Source of the DNA: Saprospiraceae bacterium | Lineage (GTDB): Bacteria > Bacteroidota > Bacteroidia > Chitinophagales > Saprospiraceae | Length of the DNA stretch: 59,872 nt | Direction of reading: 5' to 3' | Assembly (NCBI GenBank): GCA_016787285.1 | Contig: JAEUUV010000117.1 | Location: 1-59,872, forward strand | Shown: in pieces, positions 15,166 through 56,645 of the stretch | How the letters are laid out: each line of letters begins with the position of its first letter | Numbering within the stretch: the first letter of the stretch is position 1 | Program-made: the position numbers and the translations under genes | Notes under the pieces: generated by a model | The model's database searches: none | What the model was told of the DNA's origin: nothing | Seen by the model: the letters and a program-made list of their open reading frames with translations, nothing else

Positions 15166-15195
15166 AGTTTTGAGTTTTGAGTTTTGAGTTTTGAG
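15166..15195 (-). repeat. CTCAAAA heptad repeat in the hypC leader
   Basis: About four copies, read as CTCAAAA on the sense strand of hypC. They end three bases before the start codon and start at the hypB stop codon. Confidence 0.9.
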
Positions 15196-16014
15196 TTAGT
15201 TGGGGTGTGGTTGAGTTTTTTGGTTATTCAGCCAGGTATACCAGTTTTCCATGCCCTGGCCGGTGGTGGCTGAAAGTTCGATAAATTCAAGTTCGGGGTT
15301 TACCTGGCGGGCAAATGCTTTGAGGGCGTCGAGGTCGAATTTGAGATAGGGTAGCAGGTCCATTTTGTTGATGAGGCAAAGCTGGGACGACCGGAACATA
15401 TCGGGGTACTTGAGTGGCTTGTCTTCGCCCTCGGTGATGCTGATGACGACTACGCGGTTGCGCTCTCCGAGGTCGAACATGGAAGGACAAACAAGATTGC
15501 CCACATTTTCAATAAACACCACGCTGCCCGGAGCCGGGTCAAGTTGGCGGAGCGCCTCATGCACCATGTTGGCTTCGAGGTGGCAACCTTTTCCGGTATT
15601 GACCTGCACGACCGGGGTGCCACCGGCGGCAATCCGCTCGGCATCGCGCGCGCTCTGCTGGTCGCCTTCGATGACGTAGAATTTTGTTTGTGTCCCGCGC
15701 TCCAGCAACGTGCGCTCCAGAATACTGGTTTTGCCCGATCCCGGAGAACTGACGAGGTTGAAGGCCGCAATATTCCGGGCTTCAAAATAACCACGGTTGC
15801 GTTCGGCGAGGCGGTTGTTCTTATCCAGCACATCGCGTTCCACTTCGATCAGCGTCTTGGACGGCTCGGGCGCATGGATGGTCGGAGGCCCGGCGGCGGC
15901 TTGTACCATAACGCCCGCATCCACCTGAAGGGCGCCGATGTTGCGCGGCTTGCCGGTGGGGACAAAAGTGGTCAGTTTGTGGCCGTCGCCACTGCATCCG
16001 CAGGTTGCACACAT
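15196..16014 (-). CDS. hypB: Hydrogenase nickel-incorporation GTPase HypB, 272 aa
   Basis: HypB is a SIMIBI-class GTPase that, with HypA, inserts nickel into the large subunit. The chosen start gives MCATCGCSG, including the N-terminal CxxCGC high-affinity metal site. The P-loop is at about residues 89-96 (SSPGSGKTS), followed by EGDQQSARDAER, NTGKGCHLEANMV, FIENVGNLVCP and the NKMD guanine-specificity motif. There is no long His-rich storage tail. The 5' end overlaps the hypA 3' end by 43 bp, indicating tight coupling. Confidence 0.95.
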   Translation of the reverse strand: MCATCGCSGDGHKLTTFVPTGKPRNIGALQVDAGVMVQAAAGPPTIHAPEPSKTLIEVERDVLDKNNRLAERNRGYFEARNIAAFNLVSSPGSGKTSILERTLLERGTQTKFYVIEGDQQSARDAERIAAGGTPVVQVNTGKGCHLEANMVHEALRQLDPAPGSVVFIENVGNLVCPSMFDLGERNRVVVISITEGEDKPLKYPDMFRSSQLCLINKMDLLPYLKFDLDALKAFARQVNPELEFIELSATTGQGMENWYTWLNNQKTQPHPN

Positions 16015-16352
16015 AGTTCGATAGATTTGATTTTCAATTCTTCCCCCGTTTTTACCTCCTTCCAGAATGAGCCGCAAACGGGGCATGCATCAAAATAGTT
16101 TTTCAGGGCAAAGTTACCATTACAATCCAGACACACCGCACGCGCCTCCACCCGTTCGACGGCACACTCCGCCTGCTGCAAAACCGTGCCTTGCACGGCT
16201 GCCGGCCACAGGAACTCCAGATTTTCCACTTCCACACCGGCCAAATCCCCGATCTGCAACAGTACCCGTTCCACTTCCACTACGGCATCCTGCTCCGCTA
16301 CCGTCGCTTCCACGGTTTCGATGATGCTGTGAATGATGGAAAGTTCGTGCAT
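15972..16352 (-). CDS. hypA: Hydrogenase nickel-incorporation protein HypA, 126 aa
   Basis: HypA binds nickel at its N-terminus (MHEL, with the ligand His 2) and zinc through two CxxC motifs; both are present (CLDC about residue 73 and CPVC about residue 90). It transfers nickel with HypB to the large subunit. It is slightly longer than usual at the C-terminus, where it overlaps hypB by 43 bp. It is the first gene of the hyp operon, divergent from the structural genes. Its leader contains C/A-rich heptad-like repeats. Confidence 0.94.
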   Translation of the reverse strand: MHELSIIHSIIETVEATVAEQDAVVEVERVLLQIGDLAGVEVENLEFLWPAAVQGTVLQQAECAVERVEARAVCLDCNGNFALKNYFDACPVCGSFWKEVKTGEELKIKSIELCVQPADAVATATN

Positions 16353-16355
16353 AAC

Positions 16356-16396
16356 CCGGGTTTTAAGGTTTCTGGTTGGAGGGCTTCTGGTTGGGG
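16356..16396 (-). repeat. AACCAGAAACC-type leader repeat upstream of hypA
   Basis: On the hypA sense strand it reads CCAACCAGAAGCCCTCCAAC and then AACCAGAAACC, just before the start codon. It is related to the repeat at 16521-16546 in front of the divergent hydrogenase gene. Confidence 0.8.
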
Positions 16397-16584
16397 ATAA
16401 AATTCCGTGGTCAAATGTCCGAACAGGCGGTAAACAGGGCTAATGACAACAATCACATTTGGTGTCGACATGACTCAGGCGTAAAATTATCGGTGTAAAG
16501 CCACCTTTACCGGCGAAAAAAACTCCAACCAGAAGCCCTCAAACCCATGCACAGTACACCTTTCGTCACCTAACTTCCTTTTTT
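16397..16584. promoter_or_regulatory. Divergent control region between hyp and hydrogenase operons
   Basis: This stretch must hold promoters for both directions. I see only near-matches to the -7 element: ACATTTG preceded by G on the minus strand (about 16413-16420) and CACATTTG on the plus strand (about 16458-16466). No clear FNR, CRP or other operator palindrome is visible. Confidence 0.4.
16521..16546 (+). repeat. AACCAGAA-type leader repeat upstream of the hydrogenase small subunit
   Basis: Reads CTCCAACCAGAAGCCCTCAA on the sense strand, about 40 bases before the ATG at 16585. It is the mirror of the hypA leader repeat. Confidence 0.75.
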
Positions 16585-17700
16585 ATGTCTACACGTCCGG
16601 CACGCACCACTTATTATGAGGAACTCCGTCAGCGCGGATATTCGAGGCGGGATTTTATGAAGTTTTGCGCTACTGTGGCAGCCTACCTTGGCTTGGAAGC
16701 CAGCGGTACGGCTCAGGTAGTGCAAGCGCTTTCCGACAAACCGCGGATACCGGTGATCTGGCTGCACTTTCAGGAATGTACCTGTTGCAGCGAGAGTTTT
16801 ATCCGTTCCTCACACCCCATTGTAGCCGATATTTTGCTCGACAAACTTTCGCTCGACTACACCGAGACGCTCATGGCAGCCTCGGGCCATCAGGCCGAAA
16901 AATGCATGCGCGACACGATGGAAAAGTACAAGGGTGAATATGTGTTGTGCATCGAAGGCTCGGTGCCCACGGAAGCCGACGGCGTGTACTGCATGATCGG
17001 TGGGCGCACCTCGCTGGATATTTTGAAAGAGGTGTCGGCTACCGCCAAGGCCGTAATTTGTTGGGGCAGTTGCGCTTGCAACGGCTGCGTGCAGTCGGCC
17101 AAACCCAACCCGACCGGCGCCACTCCGATCCACAAACTGATCCGGGGCGTACCGATCATCAAGGTGCCGGGTTGCCCGCCGATCGGCGAGGTCATGGCCG
17201 GCGTGCTGGTACACCTGATCACGTTCGGCAAACTGCCTGAACTGGACGGCATTGGACGGCCGAAAGCGTTCTATTCCAAACGCGTACACGATACTTGCTA
17301 CCGCCGCCCGTTCTACGATGCCGGTCTGTTTGTGGAGAGTTTCGATGATGAAAATGCCAAAAAAGGCTACTGCCTGTACAAGGTGGGTTGCAAAGGCCCG
17401 ACCACGTACAACGCCTGCTCGGTCACGAAATGGAATAACGGCACAAGTTATCCCATCCAATCGGGACACGGCTGCTTCGGCTGCTCGGAAGAAAACTACT
17501 GGGACGCCGGTGCGCTGTACGCCCGTGCCCAACCTTTCCCGGGCTTTGGTATTGAATCGGATGCCGACAAGATCGGCACGGCGGCAGCAATCGCTACCGG
17601 TGTGGGTATTGCCGCACACGCCGTGATGACCAATATCCGCAAGTCCAAACTCATCCACGACGTCATCGAGGAAGGCAAGGAAGCCGAAAAAGAACTTTGA
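16585..17700 (+). CDS. hyaA: Uptake [NiFe]-hydrogenase small subunit, oxygen-tolerant type, 371 aa
   Basis: The electron-transfer subunit with three Fe-S clusters. A Tat signal (SRRDFMKF, residues 20-27) exports the folded heterodimer. The proximal-cluster cysteines are C65, C67, C68 (ECTCCSES), C163, C168 (GSCACNGC) and C197 (VPGCPP). C67 and C168 match the two extra cysteines that build the [4Fe-3S] cluster of oxygen-tolerant group 1d enzymes such as E. coli Hyd-1. C165 is one more, unusual cysteine. The distal and medial cluster ligands are present (HDTCYRR, GYCLYKVGCKGP, NACSVTKWN, GHGCFGCSE). A C-terminal hydrophobic helix (about 325-345) anchors it in the membrane. First gene of the structural operon. 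The symbol follows E. coli Hyd-1. Confidence 0.95.
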   Translation: MSTRPARTTYYEELRQRGYSRRDFMKFCATVAAYLGLEASGTAQVVQALSDKPRIPVIWLHFQECTCCSESFIRSSHPIVADILLDKLSLDYTETLMAASGHQAEKCMRDTMEKYKGEYVLCIEGSVPTEADGVYCMIGGRTSLDILKEVSATAKAVICWGSCACNGCVQSAKPNPTGATPIHKLIRGVPIIKVPGCPPIGEVMAGVLVHLITFGKLPELDGIGRPKAFYSKRVHDTCYRRPFYDAGLFVESFDDENAKKGYCLYKVGCKGPTTYNACSVTKWNNGTSYPIQSGHGCFGCSEENYWDAGALYARAQPFPGFGIESDADKIGTAAAIATGVGIAAHAVMTNIRKSKLIHDVIEEGKEAEKEL

Positions 17701-17710
17701 TCCCTGAGGG

Positions 17711-17732
17711 CTCATCCATTCATCATTCATCC
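17711..17732 (+). repeat. CATCATTCATC-type leader repeat upstream of the large subunit
   Basis: Short repeat reading CATCCATTCATCATTCATCC on the sense strand between the two hydrogenase subunit genes. It is similar to leaders at 44023-44053 and 56617-56645. Confidence 0.7.
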
Positions 17733-17741
17733 GCGCAGAGC

Positions 17742-17775
17742 AGACTTTCCGGGTTTTTCACAACCTGGAAAGTCT
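17742..17775 (+). promoter_or_regulatory. Intercistronic hairpin between the hydrogenase subunit genes
   Basis: AGACTTTCCGGGTT (17742-17755) pairs with AACCTGGAAAGTCT (17762-17775) with one mismatch. It lies 24 bases before the large-subunit ATG and has no T-tract. It may stabilise or process the operon mRNA. Confidence 0.6.
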
Positions 17776-17799
17776 TGAGCGCTAAAAATATCTCCAGTT

Positions 17800-19515
17800 A
17801 TGAGTGAACGTATCGTAGTGGACCCCGTCACCCGTATTGAAGGCCACCTGCGTGTGGAGGCCGATATTCAGAACGGGAAAATCGTGGATGCTTTTTCATC
17901 CGGCACCATGGTTCGGGGCATCGAAAAAATACTGCGCGGGCGCGACCCGCGCGACGCATGGGCATTTGTCGGGCGGGTTTGCGGGGTATGCACCTCGGTG
18001 CACTCGCTGGCGTCGGTGCGATCGGTGGAGGACGCACTGGATATTACCATTCCGCCCAATGCCGAACTGGTGCGCAACATCATGTTTGCCGCCCAGTACA
18101 TGCACGACCACGTGGTGCATTTTTACCACCTCCATGCCCTCGACTGGGTGGATGTGGTGAGCGCCCTGAAAGCCGACCCGAAAGAAGCCTCGACCATCGC
18201 CCAGAGCATTTCCAACTACCCGAAAAGTTCGCCCGGTTATTTTTCCGACTTGCAAAAACGCCTTGGACGATTCGTGGAAAGCGGCCAACTGGGCATTTTC
18301 GCCAACGGCTACTGGGGCCACAGCGCCTACAAACTGCCGCCTGCCGTAAACCTGATCGCCGTGGCGCACTACCTGGAAGCCCTGGAGTGGCAAAAGGAAA
18401 TCGTGAAAATTCACGCCATCTTCGGGGGCAAAAACCCGCACCCGAATTATCTGGTCGGCGGCATGGCTTGCAGTATCGGGCTTGACGATGTAAGCGCCAT
18501 CAATGCCGAACGCCTGGCATACGTGGGCCAGTTGCTGCACGACGCCAAAGAATTTGTGAATCAGGTGTACATCCCCGACCTGTTGGCCATCGCACCGTAC
18601 TACCTCGACTGGGGCGCCATCGGTGGCGGCCTCGGCAATTACTTAGCGTACGGCGACTTGCCCACCAACGGCTACCGCGACACGAGTTCGTACAAATTCC
18701 CGGCAGGCGCCATTCTGAACAAAGACCTGAGCAAGGTGCACGAAGTGAACATGCGCGACGACGCCGAGATTCAGGAGTTTATTGACAACTCCTGGTACGA
18801 ATACCCGGGCGACGCCAAAGGTTTGCACCCCTGGAAAGGCGAAACGGACATCAAGTACACCGGCCCGAAACCGCCGTTCGAGCACCTGGACACCACCAAG
18901 GCATACAGTTACCTGAAAACGCCGCGCTGGAAAGGCCATGCGATGGAGGTCGGCCCACTCGCCCGTGTATTAGTCGGCTATGCCTCCGGACGCGAAGAGT
19001 ACAAGGCCATTGTGGATAGTACCCTGCAAAAACTCGGTGTACCGGCTGCCGCCCTGTTCTCCACCCTGGGACGTACGGCTGCACGCGGACTGGAGTCGGC
19101 GCTCATGGCCGATTGGGGTATTGAGTTCTACGACAACCTGATCAACAACATCCGCAACGGCGACACCCGCATGGCCGTCATGGAAAAATTCAGCCCGGAC
19201 AAGTGGCCCCAACGCGCACAAGGCGTCGGCCACACCGAAGCGCCGCGCGGTGCCCTCGGCCACTGGATCGTGATCGAGGATAAAAAAATCGCCAACTACC
19301 AGTTGGTGGTTCCCACGACCTGGAATGCCTCCCCGCGCGACGGCGAGGGCAAACAGTCGGCCTACGAATCGTCGCTTATGGACACACCGGTTGCCGACGT
19401 GCATCAGCCGGTCGAAATCCTGCGGACGATCCACTCGTTCGACCCCTGCCTGGCCTGCGCCGTACACCTGTATGACGAAGACGGCAAACACGTGAGCCGG
19501 GTTAAAGTATTGTGA
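17800..19515 (+). CDS. hyaB: Uptake [NiFe]-hydrogenase large subunit, 571 aa
   Basis: The catalytic subunit that splits H2 at the Ni-Fe centre. The four active-site cysteines are present: C61 and C64 in RVCGVCTSVHS, and C550 and C553 in DPCLACAVH. After H556 a 15-residue tail remains (starting LYDEDGK), which the protease encoded downstream must remove after nickel insertion. Other family landmarks are RIEGHLRVE, DHVVHFYHLHALDWVDV and FGGKNPHPNYLVGG, close to E. coli HyaB. It is carried across the membrane on the Tat signal of the small subunit. Confidence 0.97.
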   Translation: MSERIVVDPVTRIEGHLRVEADIQNGKIVDAFSSGTMVRGIEKILRGRDPRDAWAFVGRVCGVCTSVHSLASVRSVEDALDITIPPNAELVRNIMFAAQYMHDHVVHFYHLHALDWVDVVSALKADPKEASTIAQSISNYPKSSPGYFSDLQKRLGRFVESGQLGIFANGYWGHSAYKLPPAVNLIAVAHYLEALEWQKEIVKIHAIFGGKNPHPNYLVGGMACSIGLDDVSAINAERLAYVGQLLHDAKEFVNQVYIPDLLAIAPYYLDWGAIGGGLGNYLAYGDLPTNGYRDTSSYKFPAGAILNKDLSKVHEVNMRDDAEIQEFIDNSWYEYPGDAKGLHPWKGETDIKYTGPKPPFEHLDTTKAYSYLKTPRWKGHAMEVGPLARVLVGYASGREEYKAIVDSTLQKLGVPAAALFSTLGRTAARGLESALMADWGIEFYDNLINNIRNGDTRMAVMEKFSPDKWPQRAQGVGHTEAPRGALGHWIVIEDKKIANYQLVVPTTWNASPRDGEGKQSAYESSLMDTPVADVHQPVEILRTIHSFDPCLACAVHLYDEDGKHVSRVKVL

Positions 19516-19528
19516 TCTTGTGAATCAT

Positions 19529-19566
19529 ACCGGTTTTGCGCGGCTGTCAATCTGCGCAAAACCGGT
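19529..19566 (+). promoter_or_regulatory. Perfect intercistronic hairpin between large subunit and cytochrome b genes
   Basis: ACCGGTTTTGCGC (19529-19541) pairs perfectly over 13 bp with GCGCAAAACCGGT (19554-19566), with a 12-base loop. It is not followed by a T-tract and lies 14 bases before the next ATG. Confidence 0.7.
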
Positions 19567-19580
19567 CAAAAATTTCATCT

Positions 19581-20300: not shown

Positions 20301-20306
20301 CCTGCC

Positions 20307-20813
20307 ATGGAAACACCTGAAAACAACACGCTGGTACTCGGTATCGGCAACTACCTGATGGGCGACGAAGGGGTCGGTGTGTATGTGGCGCAACAACTTG
20401 CCCAAACGCCGACGCCTTCGGGCCTTGATGTGCTGGACGGCGGCACGGGCGGTTTCCACCTGATGGGCGTTCTGGAAGATTATCCCTTCGTGGTCATGGT
20501 AGATGCCACACTGGACGGCCTTCCGGCAGGCACTATCCGTCGGATTGAGCCGCGTTTTTCCGCCGATTTTCCCCGTGCCATGAGCACGCACGACGTCGGG
20601 CTTCGGGATGTGGTGGAAGCCCTGTGCATCCGCGAACGTTTGCCCAAAATTCTCCTGTACGTGGTCTCCATCGAGGAGGCAAAACCCATGCATATCGGTC
20701 TTTCGCCTGCCGTGCAGGCGGCTGCGGATGCAGTTTTGGAAGAAATCCGAAACCTGCCGAGTTTGTTTTTTACCGCGGAGACGCAGAGCCGCGGAGGTTT
20801 TTCGCAGAGTTGA
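20307..20813 (+). CDS. hyaD: Hydrogenase maturation protease (HyaD type), 168 aa
   Basis: An endopeptidase that removes the C-terminal tail of the large subunit once nickel is bound. Motifs: VLGIGNYLMGDEGVGV with the nickel-sensing Glu/Asp (about residue 20), DGGTGGFHL, VDATLDG with a second Asp, and STHDVGL with the His ligand. The normal protein would end near EIRNLPS. The final 15 or so residues (FFTAETQSRGGF...) are encoded by a palindromic intergenic repeat and are probably a non-native extension. Last gene of the operon, 6 bp after the cytochrome gene. Confidence 0.93.
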   Translation: METPENNTLVLGIGNYLMGDEGVGVYVAQQLAQTPTPSGLDVLDGGTGGFHLMGVLEDYPFVVMVDATLDGLPAGTIRRIEPRFSADFPRAMSTHDVGLRDVVEALCIRERLPKILLYVVSIEEAKPMHIGLSPAVQAAADAVLEEIRNLPSLFFTAETQSRGGFSQS

Positions 20814-20921
20814 TTTCGCTCTGTTTGGTGTTTTCACCAAGCAGCCTCGCGTTGAGCCGCTTGGTGAAAACACCAAGCAGGGCGAAATCACTCCGCGCCT
20901 CCGCGTCTCTGCGGTGAAAAA
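20767..20921. repeat. Palindromic intergenic element of the ACGCAGAG type
   Basis: Outer arms TTTTACCGCGGAGACGCAG and its complement near CTGCGGTGAAAA enclose an inner pair of about 32 bp (TGATTTCGC..., GGTGTTTTCACCAAGC and complement), giving almost complete dyad symmetry over 155 bp. It lies between converging hyaD and ppsA, supplies the last codons of hyaD and ends 2 bp before the ppsA stop. No coding capacity of its own. Confidence 0.9.
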
Positions 20922-20923
20922 CG

Positions 20924-23305: not shown

Positions 23306-23498
23306 GGCGAAACGGCATTTAATTATACGGCAAAGGTGCCGGCGCGGGCCGCTTTTGGGGGTGATGCGGGTCAGGAGGGCGGGTGAGGTTTGGGGGGAGG
23401 ATAATTTTGGGTACAAGTTTGGCCAAAAAGAATCATGATGCTACCTTTCGCACCACAAAATCAGTTACAAACTGCTTAAATTTTAAAAATTGGACATT

Positions 23499-23678: not shown

Positions 23679-23860
23679 GTGCTTTTTGCCTTTTCAGGAA
23701 TTTCATTTGCCGGCAATATAACGCTGCCCCGACAATCTGCCGGCTTGATAAATGCCGTCCGCATCCCCACCTGACCACAGTTGCCCCTTCTCCTGATCGC
23801 GCTCATCGTTTCCGCACCGGTCAGGAATGGAGATTTGGGTGTAAAAAAACGGGAATTGCC
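23679..23860. other. Intergenic stretch before the export operon
   Basis: No gene or hairpin with a T-tract is visible. It presumably contains the promoter of the Lol-like operon, but there is no full TAnnTTTG match that I can place well. Confidence 0.35.
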
Positions 23861-24622: not shown

Positions 24623-24628
24623 CATCCC

Positions 24629-27294: not shown

Positions 27295-27999
27295 ATGAAA
27301 AAAACAGTCATCGACATCCACAACGTCAGCAAGGTGTACAACCCGGACACCATTCCCGTGCATGCCGTGAACAACGTACACCTGCATTTCGAGCAGGGCG
27401 AGTTCACGGCGCTGGTGGGGCCGTCCGGGTCGGGCAAAACGACCCTGCTCAACATCATCGGTGGTCTTGATGCCCCCACGCAGGGCAGCGTGATCATCAA
27501 CGGGACGGACATCACGCACCTGTCGGCCAACGCGCTAATCCGGTTTCGTCTGCACCATATCGGCTTTGTGTTTCAGTCGTACAACCTCGTGCCGGTGCTG
27601 ACGGCACGCGAAAACGTGGAGTTTATCATGCTGCTGCAGGGCGTGTCGAAAGCCGGGCGCGAACGGCGCGTGCGCGAATTGATGGCAGCTGTCGGCCTGA
27701 GCGACAAGATGGACGTGCGCCCGGCGCAACTTTCCGGCGGACAACAACAACGGGTGGCCGTGGCCCGCGCCCTGGCCTCCAAACCGCAGTTCATCCTCGC
27801 CGACGAACCTACCGCCAACCTCGACTCCCACTCCGCCGCCAACCTGCTCGACATGATGGCCCAACTCAACCGCGACGAAGGCATGACCTTCATCTTTTCC
27901 ACCCACGACGCCCGCGTGATCGAACGCGCCGGCCGCGTGATCACGCTGGTGGACGGCAGCATCGCGTCGGATACGGCGCGGGTGGAGACCGGGGTTTGA
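27295..27999 (+). CDS. LolD/MacB-type ABC transporter ATPase, 234 aa
   Basis: Energises the two permeases. The start ATG 27295, 5 bp after the permease, gives MKKTVIDIHNVSKVYNP. Walker A GPSGSGKTTLLN (about residue 44), Q-loop FVFQSYNLVPVLTARENV, signature LSGGQQQRVAVARAL, Walker B FILADEPTANLDS and H-loop FSTHD are all intact. Length and motifs fit the lipoprotein/macrolide exporter branch, which mechanically drives periplasmic release rather than import. Confidence 0.96.
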   Translation: MKKTVIDIHNVSKVYNPDTIPVHAVNNVHLHFEQGEFTALVGPSGSGKTTLLNIIGGLDAPTQGSVIINGTDITHLSANALIRFRLHHIGFVFQSYNLVPVLTARENVEFIMLLQGVSKAGRERRVRELMAAVGLSDKMDVRPAQLSGGQQQRVAVARALASKPQFILADEPTANLDSHSAANLLDMMAQLNRDEGMTFIFSTHDARVIERAGRVITLVDGSIASDTARVETGV

Positions 28000-28020
28000 T
28001 GGTTTGGGGGTTTCTGGTTT

Positions 28021-30713: not shown

Positions 30714-30714
30714 A

Positions 30715-30792
30715 AGGTTTGAAGGTTTTTGGTTTGAAGGTTTCTGGTTATCGTTTAAACCAGAAACCTTCAAACCAAAAACCTTCAAACCT
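30715..30792. terminator. Perfect 35-bp inverted heptad-like repeat between converging genes
   Basis: AGGTTTGAAGGTTTTTGGTT and 15 further bases (30715-30749) are repeated exactly, inverted, at 30758-30792, with an 8-base loop. It sits between two converging stop codons (30713 and 30800), so it may end transcription from both sides. It is composed of the same GAAACC-type repeat found in gene leaders. Confidence 0.7.
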
Positions 30793-30799
30793 CAAAAAA

Positions 30800-34017: not shown

Positions 34018-34062
34018 AGTTTTGAGTGTTGAGTTTTGGGTTTTGAGTCGGGTTTTGAGTTG
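34018..34062 (-). repeat. CTCAAAA-type leader repeat of hscA
   Basis: On the hscA sense strand it reads ACTCAAAACCCGACTCAAAA followed by further degenerate copies, between the -7 element at 34068-34075 and the start codon. Confidence 0.85.
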
Positions 34063-34163: not shown

Positions 34164-34202
34164 AACTCAAAACTCAAAACTCAAAACTCAAAACTCAAAA
34201 CC
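34164..34202 (+). repeat. CTCAAAA leader repeat of the YhhQ-type transporter
   Basis: Five exact heptads of CTCAAAA on the sense strand, ending about 10 bases before the ATG at 34213. It mirrors the hscA leader on the other side of the same divergent region. Confidence 0.9.
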
Positions 34203-36324: not shown

Positions 36325-36378
36325 GGTTTCTGGTTGGAGGGTTTCTGGTTGGAAGGTTGTAAGGTTTCTGGCTGGAGG
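36325..36378 (-). repeat. AACCAGAAACC repeat upstream of the DUF1761 gene promoter
   Basis: Reads AACCAGAAACCCTCCAACC in the direction of the minus-strand gene. With the copy at 36407-36460 it forms an imperfect long inverted repeat around the 36392 promoter. Confidence 0.8.
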
Positions 36379-36406: not shown

Positions 36407-36460
36407 AACCTCCAACCAGAAACCTTTCAACCTTTCAACCAGAAACCCTCCAGCCTTCTA
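36407..36460 (+). repeat. AACCAGAAACC-type leader repeat of the DUF4340-like gene
   Basis: Seven- to eight-base units of AACCAGA/AACCTTT type on the sense strand, ending six bases before the ATG. Confidence 0.85.
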
Positions 36461-38835: not shown

Positions 38836-38880
38836 ATTTGGTCAATCGAATCAATCGGGTCAATCGAATCAATCGAATTC
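38836..38880 (+). repeat. Nine-base tandem repeat (TCAATCGAA-type) in the sppA leader
   Basis: Four degenerate copies of TCAATCGAA/TCAATCGGG directly upstream of the sppA start at 38894. Confidence 0.8.
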
Positions 38881-38893: not shown

Positions 38894-40684
38894 ATGAACC
38901 AGTTTTTCAAATTTCTATTCGCTTCCTGCCTCGGCACATTTCTGGCCCTGGTCCTTCTTTTTTTCTTCGGCATTATGACCTTATCGGGCATCGCCTCTTC
39001 GGCCATGGAGAAAGAAAAAACACCCATCAAGGCCAACTCGGTACTGGAACTCAAATTTGAGCAGCCCATCCCGGAAAAAACCAACAACATGCCGCTCGAC
39101 CCGTTCAACTTTGACCAGGAAGACGTGCTGGGCCTGACCGATATGGTGAAAACCATTCGGCATGCCAAGGAAGACCCCGACATCAAGGGCATTTACATCA
39201 ACGCCATGAACCTGTCCGCCGGCCGGGCCACGTCGAACAGCCTGCGTGAGGCCCTGCTGGATTTCAAATCTTCCGGCAAATTCGTGGTGTCCTATGCCAA
39301 TTTTTATACCCAGAATGCCTACTACGTCGCTTCGGCAGCCGACGAGGTGCTGCTCAATCCTGTCGGCGCCGTGGATTTTCGTGGCTTGTCGAGCATGATC
39401 ATGTTTTTCAAAGGTATGCTGGACAAACTGGATGTGCAGATGCGCATTTTTTATGCCGGCAAATTCAAAAGCGCCACTGAGCCGTTCCGCCTCGATAAAA
39501 TGAGTGAGGAAAACCGCTTGCAAGTACGCGAGTACGTGAAAGCCCTGTACGACGACATGATCGACGATATCAGCGCCAGCCGCAAAATATCCGACAACGA
39601 CCTTCGGCGTATTGCCGACAACTTCGATGGGCGCAGTGCCAAAACCGCTCTGAGCAGCGGCCTGGTGGATCGCATCGCGTATGAAGACGAGGCGTTGGGA
39701 CTGCTCAAATCAAAAATCGGGCTGGGCGAAAAGGAGAAACTTAACCGAATCCAGGCAGAGGCGTACTACGAGTCCCGGGTTAAGAAAATTGACCTGTCGT
39801 CGAAGGACAAAATTGCCGTGGTGTATGCCGAAGGTACGATTATGGACGGCGACAAAGGGGATCCCGGCGAAGTGCTGGACGGCAAGTATGTAAAAATGTT
39901 GCGCAAAATCCGCGAGGACAAAACCGTGAAAGCCGTTGTCTTGCGCATCAATTCGCCGGGCGGCAGCGTGCTGGCCAGCGAAAATATCCTGCGTGAGGTC
40001 AACCTCTGCAAGGAGGCCGGCAAGCCGATCGTGGTGAGTATGGGCGATGTGGCGGCTTCCGGCGGATATTACATCGCCTGCCAGGCCGACAGTATTTTTG
40101 CCGAACCCAACACGATCACCGGCTCCATTGGCGTGTTCGGGGTAGTGCCCATCCTGCAAAAAACGATGAAAGAAAATCTCGGTATCACGATGGATACCGT
40201 ACGCACCGGGCGCTATTCGGCATTCGGTACGCCGTTTCTCGATTTTTCACCCGAAGAAAGCCGCATGATTCAGGAACGGGTAGAGTGGATTTACCAGGAC
40301 TTTCTGGAAAAAGTAGCCAAAGGGCGCAAGATGACCGTGGCGCAAGTGGATTCGATTGCCCAAGGGCGCGTATGGGCGGGTAAAAAAGCCCGTGAAATCG
40401 GTCTGGTGGACGCGATGGGCAACCTCGACCGGGCAATCGCTTCGGCGGCAAAATTGGCCAAATTGGGAAAATACCGCATCACCGAATACCCGCGCACGAA
40501 GACGGGCATTGAGCAACTGATCGAAAAATTTGACCGCAGCGGCTCCGGCAGCGACGACGAAATTCGCGCCATGCTGATTCGCTCTGAACTGGGCGACATG
40601 TACCCCGTATACAAAATGCTGCGCGATGCCCACCGCAATCAGGGCATTCAGGCACGGCTGCCGTACGAGTTGATGGTACATTGA
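38894..40684 (+). CDS. sppA: Signal peptide peptidase SppA, 67-kDa type, 596 aa
   Basis: A membrane protease that degrades left-over signal peptides. Start ATG 38894 (MNQFFKFLFASCLG), with one N-terminal transmembrane helix. An upstream ATG at 38750 would translate a repeat and is rejected. The protein has two tandem SppA domains. The catalytic Lys lies in AGKFKSATEPFR in the first domain and the catalytic Ser in MGDVAASGGYYIAC in the second, as in E. coli SppA. ITGSIGVFG follows. Full length. Confidence 0.93.
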   Translation: MNQFFKFLFASCLGTFLALVLLFFFGIMTLSGIASSAMEKEKTPIKANSVLELKFEQPIPEKTNNMPLDPFNFDQEDVLGLTDMVKTIRHAKEDPDIKGIYINAMNLSAGRATSNSLREALLDFKSSGKFVVSYANFYTQNAYYVASAADEVLLNPVGAVDFRGLSSMIMFFKGMLDKLDVQMRIFYAGKFKSATEPFRLDKMSEENRLQVREYVKALYDDMIDDISASRKISDNDLRRIADNFDGRSAKTALSSGLVDRIAYEDEALGLLKSKIGLGEKEKLNRIQAEAYYESRVKKIDLSSKDKIAVVYAEGTIMDGDKGDPGEVLDGKYVKMLRKIREDKTVKAVVLRINSPGGSVLASENILREVNLCKEAGKPIVVSMGDVAASGGYYIACQADSIFAEPNTITGSIGVFGVVPILQKTMKENLGITMDTVRTGRYSAFGTPFLDFSPEESRMIQERVEWIYQDFLEKVAKGRKMTVAQVDSIAQGRVWAGKKAREIGLVDAMGNLDRAIASAAKLAKLGKYRITEYPRTKTGIEQLIEKFDRSGSGSDDEIRAMLIRSELGDMYPVYKMLRDAHRNQGIQARLPYELMVH

Positions 40685-44022: not shown

Positions 44023-44053
44023 GGATGATGAATGATAAATGGTGAATGATGAA
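44023..44053 (-). repeat. CATCATTC-type leader repeat of rfbF
   Basis: On the rfbF sense strand it reads CATCATTCACCATTTATCAT then TCATCATCC, about 12 bases before the start. Confidence 0.8.
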
Positions 44054-49036: not shown

Positions 49037-49122
49037 AGTATGATCGGTTTTGATATTGACAAAAAGTATGTTTTCCTTGCAGGCAAGGCCCCCTTTGCCC
49101 TGCTTGCAAGAACCGTTCCCAA

Positions 49123-50094: not shown

Positions 50095-50126
50095 TGTAAT
50101 GAAGATTGCAATGGATTAGACAGAGA

Positions 50127-50192
50127 AGGTTGGAGGGTTTCCGGTTGGAAGGTTTAACGGGTTGAGCGGGTTTAACGGGTTGAGAGGTTTAA
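50127..50192 (-). repeat. AACC-type leader repeat of the wlbA-like gene
   Basis: Reads AACCTCTCAACCCGTTAAACC and further AACC units on the sense strand, within the 110 bases between the acetyltransferase stop and the wlbA start. Confidence 0.75.
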
Positions 50193-50202
50193 GTCCTCGG
50201 GT

Positions 50203-50790: not shown

Positions 50791-50998
50791 GGTCTGTTTG
50801 TTGTTTTTCGTTAGAAATCAGGTTGTTAAACGGCACGCGGTTTCAGATTACGCATACGTTCAATGGCTTGATAACCAATTCAGATTATTTGCAACGGGAA
50901 AGACAAAAGTCATGCCAACCAGACAGGAGATTGCATCTGACCAATACCCCGAAAACGCTAAGGGGCGCCAAGGTAGCAAGAAAATTCTCAATATCCTC

Positions 50999-53900
50999 CT
51001 AATGGCTCACCACGAGGCGGCGGATGACCCTGCTGTTTGCAGACTGGAGGTGTAGCAGATAAACGCCGGGCTGTAGCCGGCGGACATCCAATTCAAATTG
51101 TGTTTGTGCAGCCTGCTGCATGTGTTCTTGAAGGACAGTCCGACTCAATATATCCAGAATGCGGATGTCAAGTTGGGCAGGCTTCGGCAAATGGACGGAC
51201 ACGGTGATTTTTTCAGATGCCGGATTCGGATACACGCGTACCTCGAAGGCCTCTCCGGATACCTGCCGCGTAGCGACGGTTTCGGTGAGCGTGCGCGACA
51301 GGCTGTCCCAGCAGCTGTGGCTATCCATAGCATACAAAATGTAGGTGCCGGCGGGCACTCCTTCGAGGTCTTCGGTAGCCGCTACGAAGGTGGTGGTGTT
51401 CAGGTACCACGAGTACATGATCGGTGGCGTACCGCCGGCCGGTGTGACGTGTATACTGCCGTTGCTCGCGCCCGGCTCCGGGTGTTGCAGATTTTCCAGA
51501 ATGAGATACAGTGAGTCCGGCGATTCGAGGATTGTTTCCACTACCTGTGTACAGCCTTTTGCATCCGTAATAGTCAGGGTGTACGTGCCGGCGCCAAGAT
51601 TCGGGTTTTCTGCTGAATAGACCTCGTTGGACCAGACCAATGCAAACGGCCCGGTACCGCCGCTTTGGAGCGCAACTTCCAACGACCCGTCGGTATCGCC
51701 GAAACAGGTTGGCTCAACCGCAAGAAGTTCAAAAATCAGGGAATCCGGTTGCGTCAGTTCTACTTCCGCGACACTCGTGCAGCCGCTGCTTTCGGTAATT
51801 GTCAGCGTATATGTGCCGGCGCCGAGGTTGACATTTTCGGCAGACAAAACCTGATTGCTCCAGACAAAATCAAATGGAGGCACACCACCGAAAAGCACTT
51901 CGGCAAACAGCGCGCCGTCTGTGTCGCCGAAACAGTCGGGGGTTTGGAGGAGCACTTCATAAACAAGTGAGTCCGGCGACACCAGTTCAGCCTCGGCCGT
52001 GTACGAACACCCGGTAGCTTCAGTGACGGTCAGGGTGTAGGTGCCGGGACCCAGATTGGTGTTTTCAGTAGAAAAAACCTGATTGGACCACTGGAATGCG
52101 AGCAGCCCGCCGTTGCCGCCTGTCACCACGGCACTCAGGGAACCGTCGGCAGTGCCGTAGCAGGGTTGATGCACCAGAATATCCACGAGCAAGGAGTCGT
52201 GTTTCGGAACTTCTGTTTCCAACAGGTAGGTGCATCCGGTATTTTCCGAGATGGTGAGGGAATAGGTTCCCGGCGCCAGACCGGCGTTGTTAGCCGTGTA
52301 AATCTGGTTGGACCACTCGAAGAAAAACGGCCCGGTGCCGCCGCTCAGGACAGCCGCGCTCAGTGCGCCGTCGGTGGTATCATAGCAGGAGGGTGGGGTA
52401 GGGGTGATGGCGATGTTGGCCGTACAGGCGTTGCTCAGGCAGGTTTTGGCGGTATCGGCCTGCCAGGTTTGACAGCCGATTGCATCTTGAATGACAAAAG
52501 ACCAGGGCGTGCCGCCCGAAACAATTTGGCCGGCAGTGTTGGTTAAAAATGTGTACGGCGGTGTACCTCCGCTTACTGTAGCGAGCAGTTTGACACTGTC
52601 GGCACCCACGCATAATTGCGTAGCGGATAACTCCAGCGGTGTGAAATCGTAGGGCAAGGCGCCGTCGCGGATTTTCAGGCAAATTTCTCCCGCCTCGCTG
52701 CCCGCCGTGCCGTCGCGGGAAGCAATTTGCAGGAAATAGGTCTGCCCTTTGTTCAGATTTGGAATAATCGTGTAGCCTTCGCAGGACAACGGATTGTCCT
52801 GGCAAAAAACCTGTTTCAGGTTGTTGCAATCGCCTTCCCAAACAGCAAGTATGTGTTCAAATTTTGCCCCTGTGTTCACCTGCACGGAGCCGTACTCGGG
52901 CGCAATAAACTGAAACCACACGTCGTGCTCCACCGATACCGCGCAGGCGGGTTTCGGCCCGGAAAACGTAGCGCCGGTGATGCCGGCAGGTAAACACGTC
53001 GCGTTCAGGGCAACCGTTGTGGCCGTTTCACACAGGTCATTGGCAGGAGCAGGGTTTTGCACAATGGCAAGTTTCGGGCACAAATTCCCCTCCACGGTGG
53101 CGAAAACGCCGGCGATTTGTACGAAGTAGGTCTGGCCGGCAGTCAGTGTCGGCATAGTCAGTAACGCACCTTGTTCGTTGGTGGCAATTTCGGTGAGGCT
53201 GTTGCAGGCGCCCCGATACAGCGTGATGATGTGGGAAAAATCAGCGTTGGTTTCCAGTTCGAGCGTTTGACCCGGAGCAAGTGTCGGCGCCGCAAACCGA
53301 TACCACACATCGGCGCGGGCCAGCCGGTTATGCGAAGGCAAAAAGGCCGACATGGCGGCGTTGCGGTTGTTTCCTGGGGTGCAGGCGCTGTTTATCGTCA
53401 GCACTTGAGCAGTGGCGCAGTCATCGTTGACGGGGCGAACGGGGTAGGCACTTGCTGCTTCGATCCCGATGCACACTTGTCCGCGCGGCAGCCCGAAACC
53501 ACCTTCCTGTCCGGCTACACGCAGAAAATAGTGCGTGCCGGCCTGACACGGGAAAAAGGTTGTTTCGCCGGTGAACCCGTGTTCGTCGCGGTTGTCGCAA
53601 ACGACCGGGAGCGGGTTGCCGCAACTGCCGGTGAACACGTTGACCACGTCGTTGAAATCGGCGCGTGTGCTCAGCTTGGCAATACCGGTAAAATTGGCCT
53701 GCCAGCGGAACCACAGGCCGCCTGTAATCCGGTCGGAACATGTGCTTGCCGGGCCGGTGAGCAGCGCGTTGGTGTTGTCGGCAGTCGTGCAGGGTGCGCC
53801 GGTGAGCAAGGGATAAGCGGCATCGCAAAAATCGAGCGCAGGACCGTTTCCGGTCACTTTTACGTTGTCAATGCCGGCCCAGTAGCCTTGCTTGCCGCCG

Positions 53901-54937
53901 TCGGAATATTCAAAAACGATGCGCAACTGCGGCGAACGATACGGGGAAAGGTCGAAGGCGAAACTGCCGTAGTCCGGAAAAAACGGTCCGGCGACGTGGC
54001 CCTCCGTTTTCGTCAGCGGGATGGTTTCGCCCTTATCGTTTTCCAGATACACGGCAAACGACTCGTAGCCCGAATAGCGCATGATTGCGTCGTACGTCAG
54101 TTTGTAGTCAAAAAATTCCGTGCCGGAAAACCAGGGAGAGCGCAAGCGAATGGTGGAGCCGGGCGCGAGTTCGCCCTGCGCATTGTCGTCAAAAAACGCA
54201 AAACAGGTGCCGTTCATGGAGTTGCCTTCGTAAAATGCCGAAGAGCCGAGGGGCACAAAACCAAATGACCAGTTTGCCGGCCCGCTCACAATTTCCGTCG
54301 TCCATCCGGCAGGTTTTTGGCACATGTCAAAATCCTCGAGCAGCACATTGGTGCCGGTACCGGAGCCAACTACCTCAATGTTGTCAATGGCTGCGTAGTT
54401 GCCCTTGCTGCCGTTCGGGCTGGTGTAGCGAATAATCAAATGGGCCGTGGGCGATTGGGTGACGAAGGCCAGATCGTGCCGGATTTTGAAAATATCGCCC
54501 TTGTCGAGCGGCTCGTAGTTGGTCGTGTAGTTGTCGAAGCGGGCCAGCAGGGTTTCTGTGGAGCCGTCCGACACGAATATTTGCATGAAGTCACTTGCTC
54601 CGAAACGAAAATATACGTCCATGCTGCTCATAACCGTGGTATAGCCGGACACGTCGAACACAGGTGAAACAAACTCCAACATGTATCCTGGAGCAGTAGC
54701 GCCGCCGGCATCGTCGTCAATGAACAGCATGCAGGTGCCGTCAATGCTTTGTCCCTGCACGGCAGAATTTTGTGCAAAGCCGATGTTCCAGGCCGGAATG
54801 AAAGTGCTGCCGGTGATGCGTACCTGCCAGCCTGCCGGCAGGGCGCAGCCGTTGAAATCCTCCTGGAGCAAAACCGTTTGAGCGCTCAGACCGGCGGAGA
54901 AAAAAAGAAAAAAGGAGACGAGAAACCGAATACACAT
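50999..54937 (-). CDS. Large T9SS protein with adhesin-like domains and SprB-like repeats, 1312 aa
   Basis: Signal peptide MCIRFLVSFFLFFSAG to SAQ. Two related cleaved-adhesin-like domains (LLQEDFNGCALPAGW and LLEDFDMCQKPAGW, each about 190 aa) are followed by three PPC-like units (CTTADNTNALL, WFRWQA, GQTYFVQIAG). Then come about five SprB-like repeats (PTCFGDTDGSLEVAL, NLGAGTYTLTITDAKGC), the cell-surface gliding-adhesin type. A T9SS type A domain closes it (VRVYPNPASEKITVSV to IRRLVVSH). A surface adhesin or exopolysaccharide-binding filament is likely. It is near the polysaccharide cluster but transcribed from its own promoter. Confidence 0.9.
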   Translation of the reverse strand: MCIRFLVSFFLFFSAGLSAQTVLLQEDFNGCALPAGWQVRITGSTFIPAWNIGFAQNSAVQGQSIDGTCMLFIDDDAGGATAPGYMLEFVSPVFDVSGYTTVMSSMDVYFRFGASDFMQIFVSDGSTETLLARFDNYTTNYEPLDKGDIFKIRHDLAFVTQSPTAHLIIRYTSPNGSKGNYAAIDNIEVVGSGTGTNVLLEDFDMCQKPAGWTTEIVSGPANWSFGFVPLGSSAFYEGNSMNGTCFAFFDDNAQGELAPGSTIRLRSPWFSGTEFFDYKLTYDAIMRYSGYESFAVYLENDKGETIPLTKTEGHVAGPFFPDYGSFAFDLSPYRSPQLRIVFEYSDGGKQGYWAGIDNVKVTGNGPALDFCDAAYPLLTGAPCTTADNTNALLTGPASTCSDRITGGLWFRWQANFTGIAKLSTRADFNDVVNVFTGSCGNPLPVVCDNRDEHGFTGETTFFPCQAGTHYFLRVAGQEGGFGLPRGQVCIGIEAASAYPVRPVNDDCATAQVLTINSACTPGNNRNAAMSAFLPSHNRLARADVWYRFAAPTLAPGQTLELETNADFSHIITLYRGACNSLTEIATNEQGALLTMPTLTAGQTYFVQIAGVFATVEGNLCPKLAIVQNPAPANDLCETATTVALNATCLPAGITGATFSGPKPACAVSVEHDVWFQFIAPEYGSVQVNTGAKFEHILAVWEGDCNNLKQVFCQDNPLSCEGYTIIPNLNKGQTYFLQIASRDGTAGSEAGEICLKIRDGALPYDFTPLELSATQLCVGADSVKLLATVSGGTPPYTFLTNTAGQIVSGGTPWSFVIQDAIGCQTWQADTAKTCLSNACTANIAITPTPPSCYDTTDGALSAAVLSGGTGPFFFEWSNQIYTANNAGLAPGTYSLTISENTGCTYLLETEVPKHDSLLVDILVHQPCYGTADGSLSAVVTGGNGGLLAFQWSNQVFSTENTNLGPGTYTLTVTEATGCSYTAEAELVSPDSLVYEVLLQTPDCFGDTDGALFAEVLFGGVPPFDFVWSNQVLSAENVNLGAGTYTLTITESSGCTSVAEVELTQPDSLIFELLAVEPTCFGDTDGSLEVALQSGGTGPFALVWSNEVYSAENPNLGAGTYTLTITDAKGCTQVVETILESPDSLYLILENLQHPEPGASNGSIHVTPAGGTPPIMYSWYLNTTTFVAATEDLEGVPAGTYILYAMDSHSCWDSLSRTLTETVATRQVSGEAFEVRVYPNPASEKITVSVHLPKPAQLDIRILDILSRTVLQEHMQQAAQTQFELDVRRLQPGVYLLHLQSANSRVIRRLVVSH

Positions 54938-54991
54938 AGTGACTATGGTTGAACGGAGGGATTAGGTAGGATTTTTGTGCCTTAAATTTGG

Positions 54992-55021
54992 CAAATGTAA
55001 AGGTAATAGCCCGAGCGCCAA
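54992..55021 (-). promoter_or_regulatory. Consensus promoter of the large SprB-repeat gene
   Basis: On the minus strand TTG (55019-55021), 19 bp, TACATTTG (54992-54999), both perfect, 55 bases before the ATG at 54937. Confidence 0.85.
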
Positions 55022-55042
55022 CAGGATTCTGCAAACCTTCCC

Positions 55043-55050
55043 TAATTTTG
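55043..55050 (+). promoter_or_regulatory. -7 element TAATTTTG of the DUF1800 gene
   Basis: Perfect TAnnTTTG, 51 bases before ATG 55102. A second perfect match, TAAATTTG, lies at 54983-54990, two bases from the divergent promoter on the other strand. Confidence 0.6.
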
Positions 55051-55101
55051 GCTTTTGAAAAAAATCGGACAATTTTATCCGCAAGCCATAATCGAAAAAT
55101 C

Positions 55102-56616
55102 ATGCCTGCCGCCACATCAGCATTTTTTGAAAACCGCCAACAGCGCACCATGTTCATGCCTGCGTTGGCGGATTCGCTTGACCCGTATGAGCCGTCGCCG
55201 GACAAACCCTGGAACGCCCGCCGCGTGGCGCACTTGTACCGGCGACTCGGTTTCGGGGCTACGATTGACCAAATTCAGCAGGGACTGGCCATGCACCCCT
55301 CGGCCCTGGTGGATCAGTTGCTCAACGAAGCAGTAGCCCTGCCGCTACCCCCCGTACCTCAGCCGGAAGACTGGACCCAATGGACCAGCGCCCAGTATGC
55401 CAACAATTTCGGCAAAGTAGAGGAGCACCGCCGCTACCTGCGTCACCGCTGGTTTTCGGAAATGCTCGACGAAAGCGTGCGTGCCAAAATGACCCTGTTC
55501 TGGCACAACCACTTTGTCACCAAACTCTACATCGTCGGTTGCAATGCCTACACCTGGAGTTATTTTGTGCTCCTGCACCGGTATGCATTCGGGAATTTCC
55601 GCGAATTTGTCGTGGAAATGGGCAAAAACCCTGCCATGCTCGTGTTTCTGAACGGCAATGTGAACGAGACCGGAGAGCCTAACGAAAACTATGCCCGCGA
55701 ACTCATGGAACTGTTCACCATGGGCGAAGGCAACGGCTACACCCAGGCCGATGTAGTGGAAATGGCCCGGGCGCTGACCGGCTGGCGGGCCTCATTCAAC
55801 GACTGTACCCCGCACTACTTCGACCCGACGAAATACGACAACAACCCCAAGACCATCTTCGGCGTCACCGGCAATTTCGATTCCGATGCCGCACACAACC
55901 TGATTTTTCAGGAGCGCCCGGTGCAGGTTTCCGAGTTTGTCACCGGCAAACTGTACCGTCACTTTGTGTTTCAGCACACCGACCCGGCGATCATTCAGGG
56001 ACTGGCCACCACCTTCCGTGACCAGAATTGGGAACTGCTGCCGGTGGTGAAACAACTAATCAAAAGCGAGCATTTCTTCGAAGAACGTTTCCTCAACGCC
56101 CGCATCAAAAGCCCGATGGAGGTGCTTATCCCCATCCTGAAAATGGCCGGCGCCAAATCGGCAGATCATGTGGAACCGGTCTGGTGGGACGACGTCACGT
56201 TCTGGATGGACAAACTCGGGCAAGTGCCCTTCGACCCGCCGAATGTAGCCGGCTGGTCCGGGCACCGCAAATGGGTCAATGAAAGTACGCTGACCAACCG
56301 CTGGAAATTCGCCGGCCTGCTGGCTACCCTCGTGTCCAAAAACGACTTCCTGCGCGACAACCTGCGTACCCTCGCCAAAACGCTGACAAACAACAGCAAC
56401 GATCCGGCGGTCATCTCGGCGGCGCTTATTGACTTTTTCTGCGGGCAGGAACTCGACGCGATTCATTTCCAGGCCGCAGTCGAGTATTTCAAAAACGGCA
56501 TCCCGGAAGGCTATTTCACCGACGGTTCCTGGAACCTGAACTGGGACGAGGCGCCATACCAGGTGATCGCACTGCTTCAATATTTAGCCAAACAACCGGA
56601 ATATCAACTTGCTTAG
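55102..56616 (+). CDS. DUF1800-family protein, 504 aa
   Basis: Start ATG 55102 gives MPAATSAFFENRQQRTMFMP. Typical DUF1800 landmarks are ARRVAHLYRRLGFGATIDQI, MTLFWHNHFVTKL, LVFLNGNVNETGEPNENYAREL, MELFTMGEGNGYTQADVVE, ALTGWRA and PPNVAGWSGHRKW. The function of the family is unknown. It almost always neighbours a DUF1501 gene, as here (33 bp gap), so the two products probably act together. The N-terminus has no obvious signal peptide. The length is full for the family. Confidence 0.92.
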   Translation: MPAATSAFFENRQQRTMFMPALADSLDPYEPSPDKPWNARRVAHLYRRLGFGATIDQIQQGLAMHPSALVDQLLNEAVALPLPPVPQPEDWTQWTSAQYANNFGKVEEHRRYLRHRWFSEMLDESVRAKMTLFWHNHFVTKLYIVGCNAYTWSYFVLLHRYAFGNFREFVVEMGKNPAMLVFLNGNVNETGEPNENYARELMELFTMGEGNGYTQADVVEMARALTGWRASFNDCTPHYFDPTKYDNNPKTIFGVTGNFDSDAAHNLIFQERPVQVSEFVTGKLYRHFVFQHTDPAIIQGLATTFRDQNWELLPVVKQLIKSEHFFEERFLNARIKSPMEVLIPILKMAGAKSADHVEPVWWDDVTFWMDKLGQVPFDPPNVAGWSGHRKWVNESTLTNRWKFAGLLATLVSKNDFLRDNLRTLAKTLTNNSNDPAVISAALIDFFCGQELDAIHFQAAVEYFKNGIPEGYFTDGSWNLNWDEAPYQVIALLQYLAKQPEYQLA

Positions 56617-56645
56617 CATCGCTCATCACACATCACTCATCACTA
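56617..56645 (+). repeat. CATCACTCATCACT-type leader repeat of the DUF1501 gene
   Basis: Reads CATCGCTCATCACACATCAC then TCATCACT on the sense strand, filling the gap between the two genes and ending four bases before the ATG. Confidence 0.85.

Follow-up and report, generated by a model that had tools for sequence, protein, structure and literature searches.

The genome of a Saprospiraceae bacterium (assembly GCA_016787285.1) contains short tandem arrays, mostly intergenic and mostly of heptad units, that show a fixed polarity at both ends of genes. Several of these arrays lie in contig JAEUUV010000117.1, the whole of which (59,872 nucleotides) was analysed and is termed the window. At both gene ends the C/A-rich strand reads into the gene and the G-rich strand reads out of it. 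In gaps with sufficient room, the G-rich strand is directed away from the gene in 30/30 arrays found within 40 bp of a start and in 26/30 found within 40 bp of a stop. The polarity is lost beyond 40 bp, where 10 of 20 arrays have the G-rich strand outward. A preliminary description of the window presented the repeats as upstream elements of one orientation. The count over 859 kb of this genome bears out the fixed orientation near starts, but stops are polarised as well, in mirror image.

The window is one contig of a 5.56 Mb genome in 345 contigs, and among the genomes searched the species is represented by one strain. The counts for this genome come from the window (W) and 60 further stretches, in total 859,234 bases in which 627 genes were called with our own simple codon-usage caller and no published program. 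Stretches, of this genome or of others, are labelled L with a number. Other genomes are labelled G with a number; G023 belongs to another genus and its units are mostly different. Stretches picked for motif hits make up 10 of the 61 in this genome, 8 of the 20 in G023, and those of G137 and G035. The main count uses tandem-repeat calling with a G/C skew of at least 0.4, and an array is near a gene if it lies 40 bp or less from the coding edge; a parallel count uses a motif scan for arrays of at least 20 bp. Arrays with both coding edges within 40 bp were tallied apart from those in roomy gaps. The skew counts leave aside 76 intergenic rows with weak G/C skew (all genomes) and one array on a stretch with no called genes, and 219 motif matches shorter than 20 bp within genes were left out of the analysis. 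Six unit families were followed: F1, ACTCAAA; F2, AACCAGAAACC with CTTCC; F3, CATCACT/CATCATT; F4, AACCCGTTA/AACCCGCTC; F5, AATCGAATC; and F6, CAATCAACCAGTCAAC.

The motif scan gives the same picture, with 31/31 arrays outward at starts, 32/34 at stops and 8/17 beyond 40 bp; by gap type the agreement is 16/18 in convergent and 17/17 in divergent gaps. Removal of the ten motif-picked stretches, with the window kept, leaves 24/24 at starts and 24/26 at stops. Lone arrays in roomy gaps are equally consistent (11/11 at starts, 14/15 at stops). The sense strand on the stop side is thus the G/T-rich one, and the families are those of the start side. Arrays also fit closely to the coding edge: where a gap offers 100 bp or more of free room, 37 of 59 are within 12 bp of it, where 7.8 would be expected from uniform placement. 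The roomy exceptions in this genome are four, W 50150, L022 17589, L045 1193 and L045 8475. The first is oriented as expected for a start at a distance of 55 bp; those in L045 are left arms of facing pairs. Where a start and a stop adjoin one array, the start side prevails. Codirectional gaps with one array near both edges have it C/A-sense in 17/20 cases, and among lone arrays in tight gaps a nearer start is obeyed in 11/12 and a nearer stop in 5/13.

The polarity is independent of unit sequence and of genome. G023 shows it at 6/6 starts and 20/20 stops in roomy gaps, and nine other relatives, pooled, at 9/9 starts and 8/8 stops, so that all 43 arrays of relatives obey (15/15 at starts). Over all genomes of this count the roomy gaps give 45/45 at starts, 54/58 at stops and 32/60 beyond 40 bp. 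The 12 stretches of G023 that were not motif-picked have 16/16 arrays in agreement, short gaps included. Units in relatives include GCAGTAG, AGTTCGA, GTGAGTT, GTTTGAA and ATTGGAA, and F1-type units are found in two of the nine. Other Bacteroidota families obey in 8 of 9 cases, and 7 of the 9 come from the three motif-picked stretches in a sample of 20; stretches below 8 kb were skipped.

The pattern is more than chance would give, and several of the unit sequences were counted across genomes. CTCAAAACTCAAAA has 412 overlapping matches in this genome. A run of three such units was found in 8 of the 199 family genomes and in 8 of 198 across the phylum, this genome included in both, and in neither of two congeners. 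AACCAGAAACCTTCCAACCAGAAACC, with two mismatches allowed, has 95 matches here and none in seven relatives searched. AATCGAATCAATCGAATCAATCG has 101 matches here and 105 in G023, and zero in the other 118 of 120 genomes. The two congeners yielded one weak array in 80 kb sampled. The Hsp70 gene of the window has as its nearest named relatives metagenome genomes labelled Saprospiraceae or Bacteroidota, and in the orthologous hscA upstream gaps inspected in named metagenome-assembled genomes no F1 array was seen. Two of these gaps (L070 and L071, 75 and 74% identity) have no array, L072 has arrays of GTGAGAG/CTCTCAC type, and L069 has a CAAACCTC array further upstream.

Two observations on the wider sample may be added. 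Stretches L265 (G339), L264 (G243) and L255 (G383), from other Bacteroidota families, contain heptads of AGTTTTG/CTCAAAA type, and also CTAACAG, mostly with the same polarity, whether by common descent or by independent invention. In G023, long AATCGAATC arrays are situated close to contig ends in L154, L155 and L157; the assembly seems to break at them, and the unit counts there may be lower bounds.

The preliminary description proposed that the repeats are length-variable translation enhancers in 5′ leaders. Several properties of the start side agree with this. The C/A-rich strand is the sense strand at all 45 starts (30/30 here and 15/15 in relatives), as had been stated for the window, and the two array leaders that were folded are both unstructured. 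A TANNTTTG box, a pattern that we assume for this purpose, is present in 10 of 40 array-bearing leaders; in six of the ten the array begins 0–14 bp beyond the box and is therefore inside a probable leader, and the distance from box to start exceeds that in genes with no array (p 0.03). Initiation in Bacteroidetes is described as independent of Shine–Dalgarno (SD) sequences (PMC3155529), and unstructured, G-poor arrays in probable leaders would suit such initiation. Some stop-side arrays precede a terminator-like hairpin (L034 and L062, by eye), and start- and stop-side arrays are both probably in untranslated RNA. However, equal frequency after stop codons had been named as a finding that would speak against enhancers, and the roomy arrays divide into 30 on the start side and 30 on the stop side (31 and 34 by motif scan). 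With the stop side equally populated and mirrored, and with convergent gaps, which hold no start, in agreement in 16/18 cases, a purely translational reading is ruled out. Enhancement of translation was rejected as sole cause, and it would make a quite unlikely explanation of the arrays as a class.

Ordinary base composition was considered next to this. In gaps free of arrays, the 20 bp that immediately precede a start have a GC skew of about −0.3, and the value after stops is about 0. Since trailers without arrays are unskewed, ordinary composition does not account for the stop-side polarity, and local composition was rejected for that side. Neutral slippage, by which arrays would inherit the composition of leader or trailer, could draw on the G-poor array-free leaders and on F1 lengths that span 17 to 123 bp. 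It is nevertheless very improbable, as it leaves the polarised stop-side arrays unaccounted for, and F1 ends are phase-locked and the families recur genome-wide.

Facing arrays in one gap have a regular order. Where one family is present on both strands, 25 of 27 gap-and-family cases read G-rich then C-rich, the other two alternate with G first and C last, and no plain C..G reverse pair was found among the 27. Two-sided gaps with arms of at least 14 bp have a single family on both sides in 22/24 cases, against 28.5% by chance. Three gaps with arms of mixed families keep the G..C order, and the single reversed two-sided gap (L043, 1,983 bp) consists of matches of 11–13 bp. Folding predicts long hairpins for two same-family pairs, both in convergent gaps: positions 30714–30799 of the window give −58.4 kcal/mol (z −13.7) and L011 14456–14533 gives −49.7 kcal/mol, and no shuffle was as good. 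The fold of a mixed-family gap is unremarkable (z −1.2), and a lone C/A arm (window 15163–15195) gives 0 kcal/mol with no palindrome within the arm. Complementarity between the 5′ and 3′ ends of one mRNA was rejected: among five genes with arrays at both ends none shares a family between them, whereas facing arms in one gap do.

The pairs raise the question of a palindromic mobile unit composed of G arm, spacer and C arm, with lone arrays as half elements. Such a unit is identical when read from either side, and the order of its arms would be automatic. Repetitive extragenic palindromic (REP) sequences and REPINs, with their REP-associated tyrosine transposases (RAYTs), are likewise short dispersed extragenic repeats, and REPINs are described as inverted doublets that form hairpins and of which singlets persist as relics (Bertels and Rainey, 2011; PMC3116915). 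The simple G..C order, the shared family, the hairpins and the inner variants common to both arms of L011 14458–14529 all favour a unit of this kind. Unlike REPs, the arms here are tandem arrays and not palindromes, and lone arms are common and positioned: those in roomy gaps are polarised in 25/26 cases and lie close to the coding edge. The order also holds in the three mixed-family gaps, inner variants differ between the arms of L009 8039–8102, by eye the spacers look unrelated, those of divergent gaps can contain the promoters, and copies within open reading frames (ORFs) are single arms. RAYT mobilisation found no support at the six Y1 transposase loci inspected out of nine, where no F1 array adjoins the gene. 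Y1_Tnp has nine matches in the genome, eight of them above the cut-off, and the six loci include an F5 array more than 1 kb away (L240) and single F2 units (L242, L244); RVT_1 (reverse transcriptase) has one match in the genome. A REPIN-like unit is unlikely. It accounts for pairs but not for lone or mixed cases, and there remains a copied block with an orientation filtered or set by some influence to either side of coding sequences.

Three further observations concern other repeats. In L241 a Y1 transposase gene is flanked by TGCCCGGTCAGGCAGTT arrays at 1348–1381 and 2394–2427, unrelated to F1–F6, and is possibly a RAYT with its own repeat. Longer inverted repeats of CACAGAGGC/CGCAGAGGCGCGGAG phrases are found in gene gaps of L051 (near 6256), L067 (near 12115) and L068 (near 13900). 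L033 6443–6753 consists of head-to-tail units of about 73 bp (G arm, spacer, C arm), like mosaic repeats of other bacteria.

The arrays are more than free-running microsatellites, and F1 resembles a block that is copied as a whole. Its length peaks at 31–32 bp, with 26 of 59 copies in an end-free scan and 21 of 57 heptad arrays by Tandem Repeats Finder; an end-fixed pattern, unlike the end-free scan, gives 7-bp steps by construction. The ends are locked in phase: the first base is A3 or A4 of CAAAACT in 49/59 copies and the last base is T6 in 44/59, where even phases would give about 8 of 59 for a single base. Identical internal variants reappear at unrelated loci. Only for F1 can the block model be called firm.

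Twelve arrays with a length of 20 bp or more were assigned to ORFs; 11 of them are C/A-sense, and the sole G-sense array crosses a stop codon. Two of the 11 share one weakly scored ORF of L017, and another (L016 3265) lies 8 bp past the called start; a later ATG may be the true start, with the array upstream of it. Comparison with relatives suggests that some copies in conserved proteins were inserted as blocks. An in-frame F1 array at L013 10606–10636, in a gene that we take to encode a kinase-like protein, is covered by a 15-column gap in 23 of 24 aligned relatives, with most of it covered in the other one. The array at L046 484–515, also in frame and in a presumably helicase-like gene, corresponds to a gap of about 12–15 columns in all 24 aligned relatives, a congener included. 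The in-ORF copies bear on the possibility that orientation is a matter of reading-frame filtering, in which G-strand copies, with their stop codons, end up beside stops and C-strand copies are read through. The C-sense of the in-ORF copies, the one G-sense copy at a stop and some stops at array junctions (by eye) would fit, but arrays clear of the stop obey the rule in 19/23 cases here and 15/15 in relatives, and G strands with no stop codon obey in 5/5 cases in relatives, although the single such case in this genome does not. The filter was rejected as failing for arrays clear of stops and is scarcely credible as a general cause.

Arrays in frame before the C-terminal tail of large proteins were observed at window 7424–7462 and at L049 550–574 and 13350–13374. 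They belong to two families (F1-type and F3), and all three are located 243 bp before the stop; the tail that follows the window array is a Por_Secre_tail domain.

Short intergenic tandem heptads are known from cyanobacteria as short tandemly repeated repetitive (STRR) sequences. The closest parallel to the present arrays is formed by the GGGAATC and GGGGA(C/T)T heptads found in two Xanthomonas genomes and, similarly distributed, in a Nostoc genome (Rehm et al., 2015; PMC4692102). These repeats are discussed there as quadruplexes, and no function was found. They too are mostly intergenic, with the G-rich strand antisense within 50 bp upstream of genes and sense within 50 bp after stops; they are nearer to the ORF at the 5′ side of the G strand, show a peak at four units and inverted pairs in the xanthomonads, and are associated with no functional class of gene. 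The outward G-rich strand at both ends is shared, and so is the preference for four units, which here is confined to F1. The GGGAATC type has one quadruplex-capable consensus and is under-represented in divergent gaps. In contrast, there are six families in the genome analysed here and many others in relatives, mostly not capable of quadruplexes, and divergent gaps are occupied about as often as other gaps. Other features here are facing arms of one family, F1 blocks within ORFs and a four-unit peak that needs no quadruplex.

Quadruplexes might select position and a four-unit length, and the same rule and the same preference in Xanthomonas (PMC4692102) speak for this. There is no run of G in the consensus unit AGTTTTG, though, and of 86 near-gene arrays 57 are incapable of even a two-tier quadruplex and only seven reach three tiers. 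Since arrays incapable of two tiers obey in 50/57 cases here and in 37/37 in relatives, the quadruplex was rejected for most units and is barely tenable as the general cause.

Transcription insulation would cover both gene ends, all gap types and the indifference to unit sequence: C-rich, G-poor RNA at entry would load Rho against antisense or read-through transcripts, and G-rich RNA at exit would favour pausing or R-loops. Rho utilization (rut) sites are C-rich and G-poor, but 31 bp is short for one. A similar rule is found in Nostoc (PMC4692102), yet cyanobacteria are reported to be without Rho (PMC13289151), and a Rho-only account is thereby weakened. Insulation of this type would seem improbable.

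The TAACTGA direct repeats of the Beggiatoaceae are also heptads, of two to six copies; most precede a start codon closely and share one orientation, and a translational role has been suggested; they are reported in addition from five Bacteroidetes and from cyanobacteria (MacGregor, 2015; PMC4679880). Those repeats have a single unit sequence, and 12 of the 170 sets tabulated there are oriented toward a stop codon, whereas here the stop side is equally frequent and mirrored. The present arrays are an extension of a known kind, distinguished by many units, most of them non-quadruplex, a mirrored stop side in convergent and divergent gaps, and block-like copies in ORFs. A literature search on intergenic tandem repeats in Saprospiraceae found no report in the collection searched.

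The explanation that we put forward, tentatively and at a little under an even chance, is that the arrays are lineage-specific, strand-asymmetric blocks that spread as units and are kept in one orientation at coding edges. The observed parts are the polarity at both gene ends and its disappearance past 40 bp, its independence of unit and genome, the snug fit to the edge, the phase-locked F1 of 31–32 bp, the same-family pairs with their capacity for hairpins, and in-ORF copies at places where orthologs have gaps. Repeat blocks would spread by copying into gene-flanking DNA and lengthen by whole units through slippage. Their orientation may then be set by selection on RNA, G-poor into genes and G-rich out of them, a step that we favour with some reserve. 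At starts, G-poor, unstructured leaders free of start codons would be tolerated or favoured by SD-independent ribosomes. At stops, a G-rich trailer, alone or paired with a facing C-rich block, might shield the ribosome exit from C-rich unstructured RNA, and its pairing would tend to close the gap as a hairpin. Enhancement of translation would be no more than one of the consequences, limited to one end of the gene. A broader proposition, that coding edges in repeat-rich bacteria have a sequence-independent polarity, so that any spread repeat is retained or deposited with its G-rich strand outward and in no other way, at starts as at stops, is conceivable but on balance doubtful.

A number of findings weigh against the proposed explanation. 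In tight gaps, with both edges within 40 bp, only 26/32 arrays are outward from the nearer edge, and in other families only 3/6. The G strand on the start side also holds a start codon in all 45 cases, and avoidance of false starts would serve equally there. Phase-locking of ends is weaker or absent in F2, F3, F5 and F6, and array lengths in G023 show no sharp peak at 31 bp. Block insertion rests on distant orthologs (33–50% identity), in which the gaps exceed the array by a few residues. Neither a target duplication nor a mobilising enzyme was found, the six Y1 loci included, and the reason offered for the stop side is an inference.

The arrays of the window are listed below.

Table 1. Repeat arrays of the window, with the strand on which the array is C/A-rich where skewed
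Position	Strand	Array	Location
7424..7462	+	F1-type, CGAAACT x5	in ORF, C/A sense, in linker before Por_Secre_tail sorting domain
15166..15197	-	F1 block, ACTCAAA x4.6, 32 bp	3 bp upstream of hypC
16367..16392	-	F2, AACCAGAAACC type	14 bp upstream of hypA
16527..16537	+	single F2 unit	faces hypA array in divergent hypA/hyaA gap
17712..17731	+	F3, CATCATTCATC	between hyaA stop and hyaB
27991..28019	-	F2-like	G/T-rich on +; overlaps + strand stop at 27999 and extends just past it
30716..30749	-	F2, left arm	G/T-rich on +; 2 bp past + strand stop, convergent gap
30757..30791	+	F2, right arm	8 bp before stop of - strand gene (isocitrate/isopropylmalate dehydrogenase)
34018..34061	-	F1	6 bp upstream of Hsp70 (hscA-like) gene
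34164..34202	+	F1, 5.4 units	10 bp upstream of yhhQ-like (Vut_1) gene
36325..36373	-	F2	40 bp upstream of DUF1761 gene
36414..36447	+	F2	18 bp upstream of DUF4340 gene
38840..38877	+	F5, AATCGAATC type	16 bp upstream of gene at 38894
44025..44053	-	F3	13 bp upstream of nucleotidyltransferase (rfbF-like) gene
50127..50192	-	F2 then F4	between start of wlbA-like (GFO/IDH/MocA) gene and stop of next - strand gene
56617..56643	+	F3	fills gap from DUF1800 stop to DUF1501 start

Genes are identified to Pfam family (HypC, HypA, NiFe hydrogenase subunits, Hsp70, Vut_1, DUF1761, DUF4340, nucleotidyltransferase, GFO/IDH/MocA and DUF1501). The preliminary description listed 11 upstream sites, and at all 11 the C/A-rich strand is indeed the sense strand of the named gene. 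Most hold arrays, but the hyaA site has a single F2 unit, at least 48 bp before the start. The hyaB site comes 11 bp past the stop of hyaA, with 68 bp between it and hyaB, and agrees with the start side of the rule and not with the stop side. The arrays of hypC and DUF1501 occupy the entire intergenic space and so adjoin a stop as well as a start; that of hypC extends to the stop of the next − strand gene (CobW/HypB family). The F1 array at the hscA-like gene is probably within its leader. The array at 50127 has start-side orientation and violates the stop side of the rule. The F5 array was absent from the earlier list; it has no G/C skew and is therefore outside the skew counts. Two sites near 28001 and 30715 had been set aside as exceptions, one antisense and one palindromic, but the first overlaps and follows a stop and the second is between two stops, and both are ordinary stop-side members.

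The window has two other repeats. A long inverted repeat (CGCTCTG..GGTGTTTTCACCAAGC) is found at 20811–20890 between convergent genes, outside the array families, and a coding tandem repeat of 204 bp is at 3608–4365, in a protein with TSP3 repeats.

As a dispersed element the F1 block would be unusually short, and no mover is known for it. A near-perfect rule that applies to many units, to starts and stops and to several families points to a general constraint beside coding sequences. If the sequence-independent polarity of coding edges is true, it would point to one general strand-polar process, for example control of the RNA that enters or leaves genes, in preference to any motif, quadruplex or signal at start codons. 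Under the rule, the quadruplex reading from Xanthomonas and Nostoc and the start-codon reading from Beggiatoa become testable special cases. Genomes of this type are natural experiments in the design of 5′ and 3′ untranslated regions, in a phylum without Shine–Dalgarno pairing.

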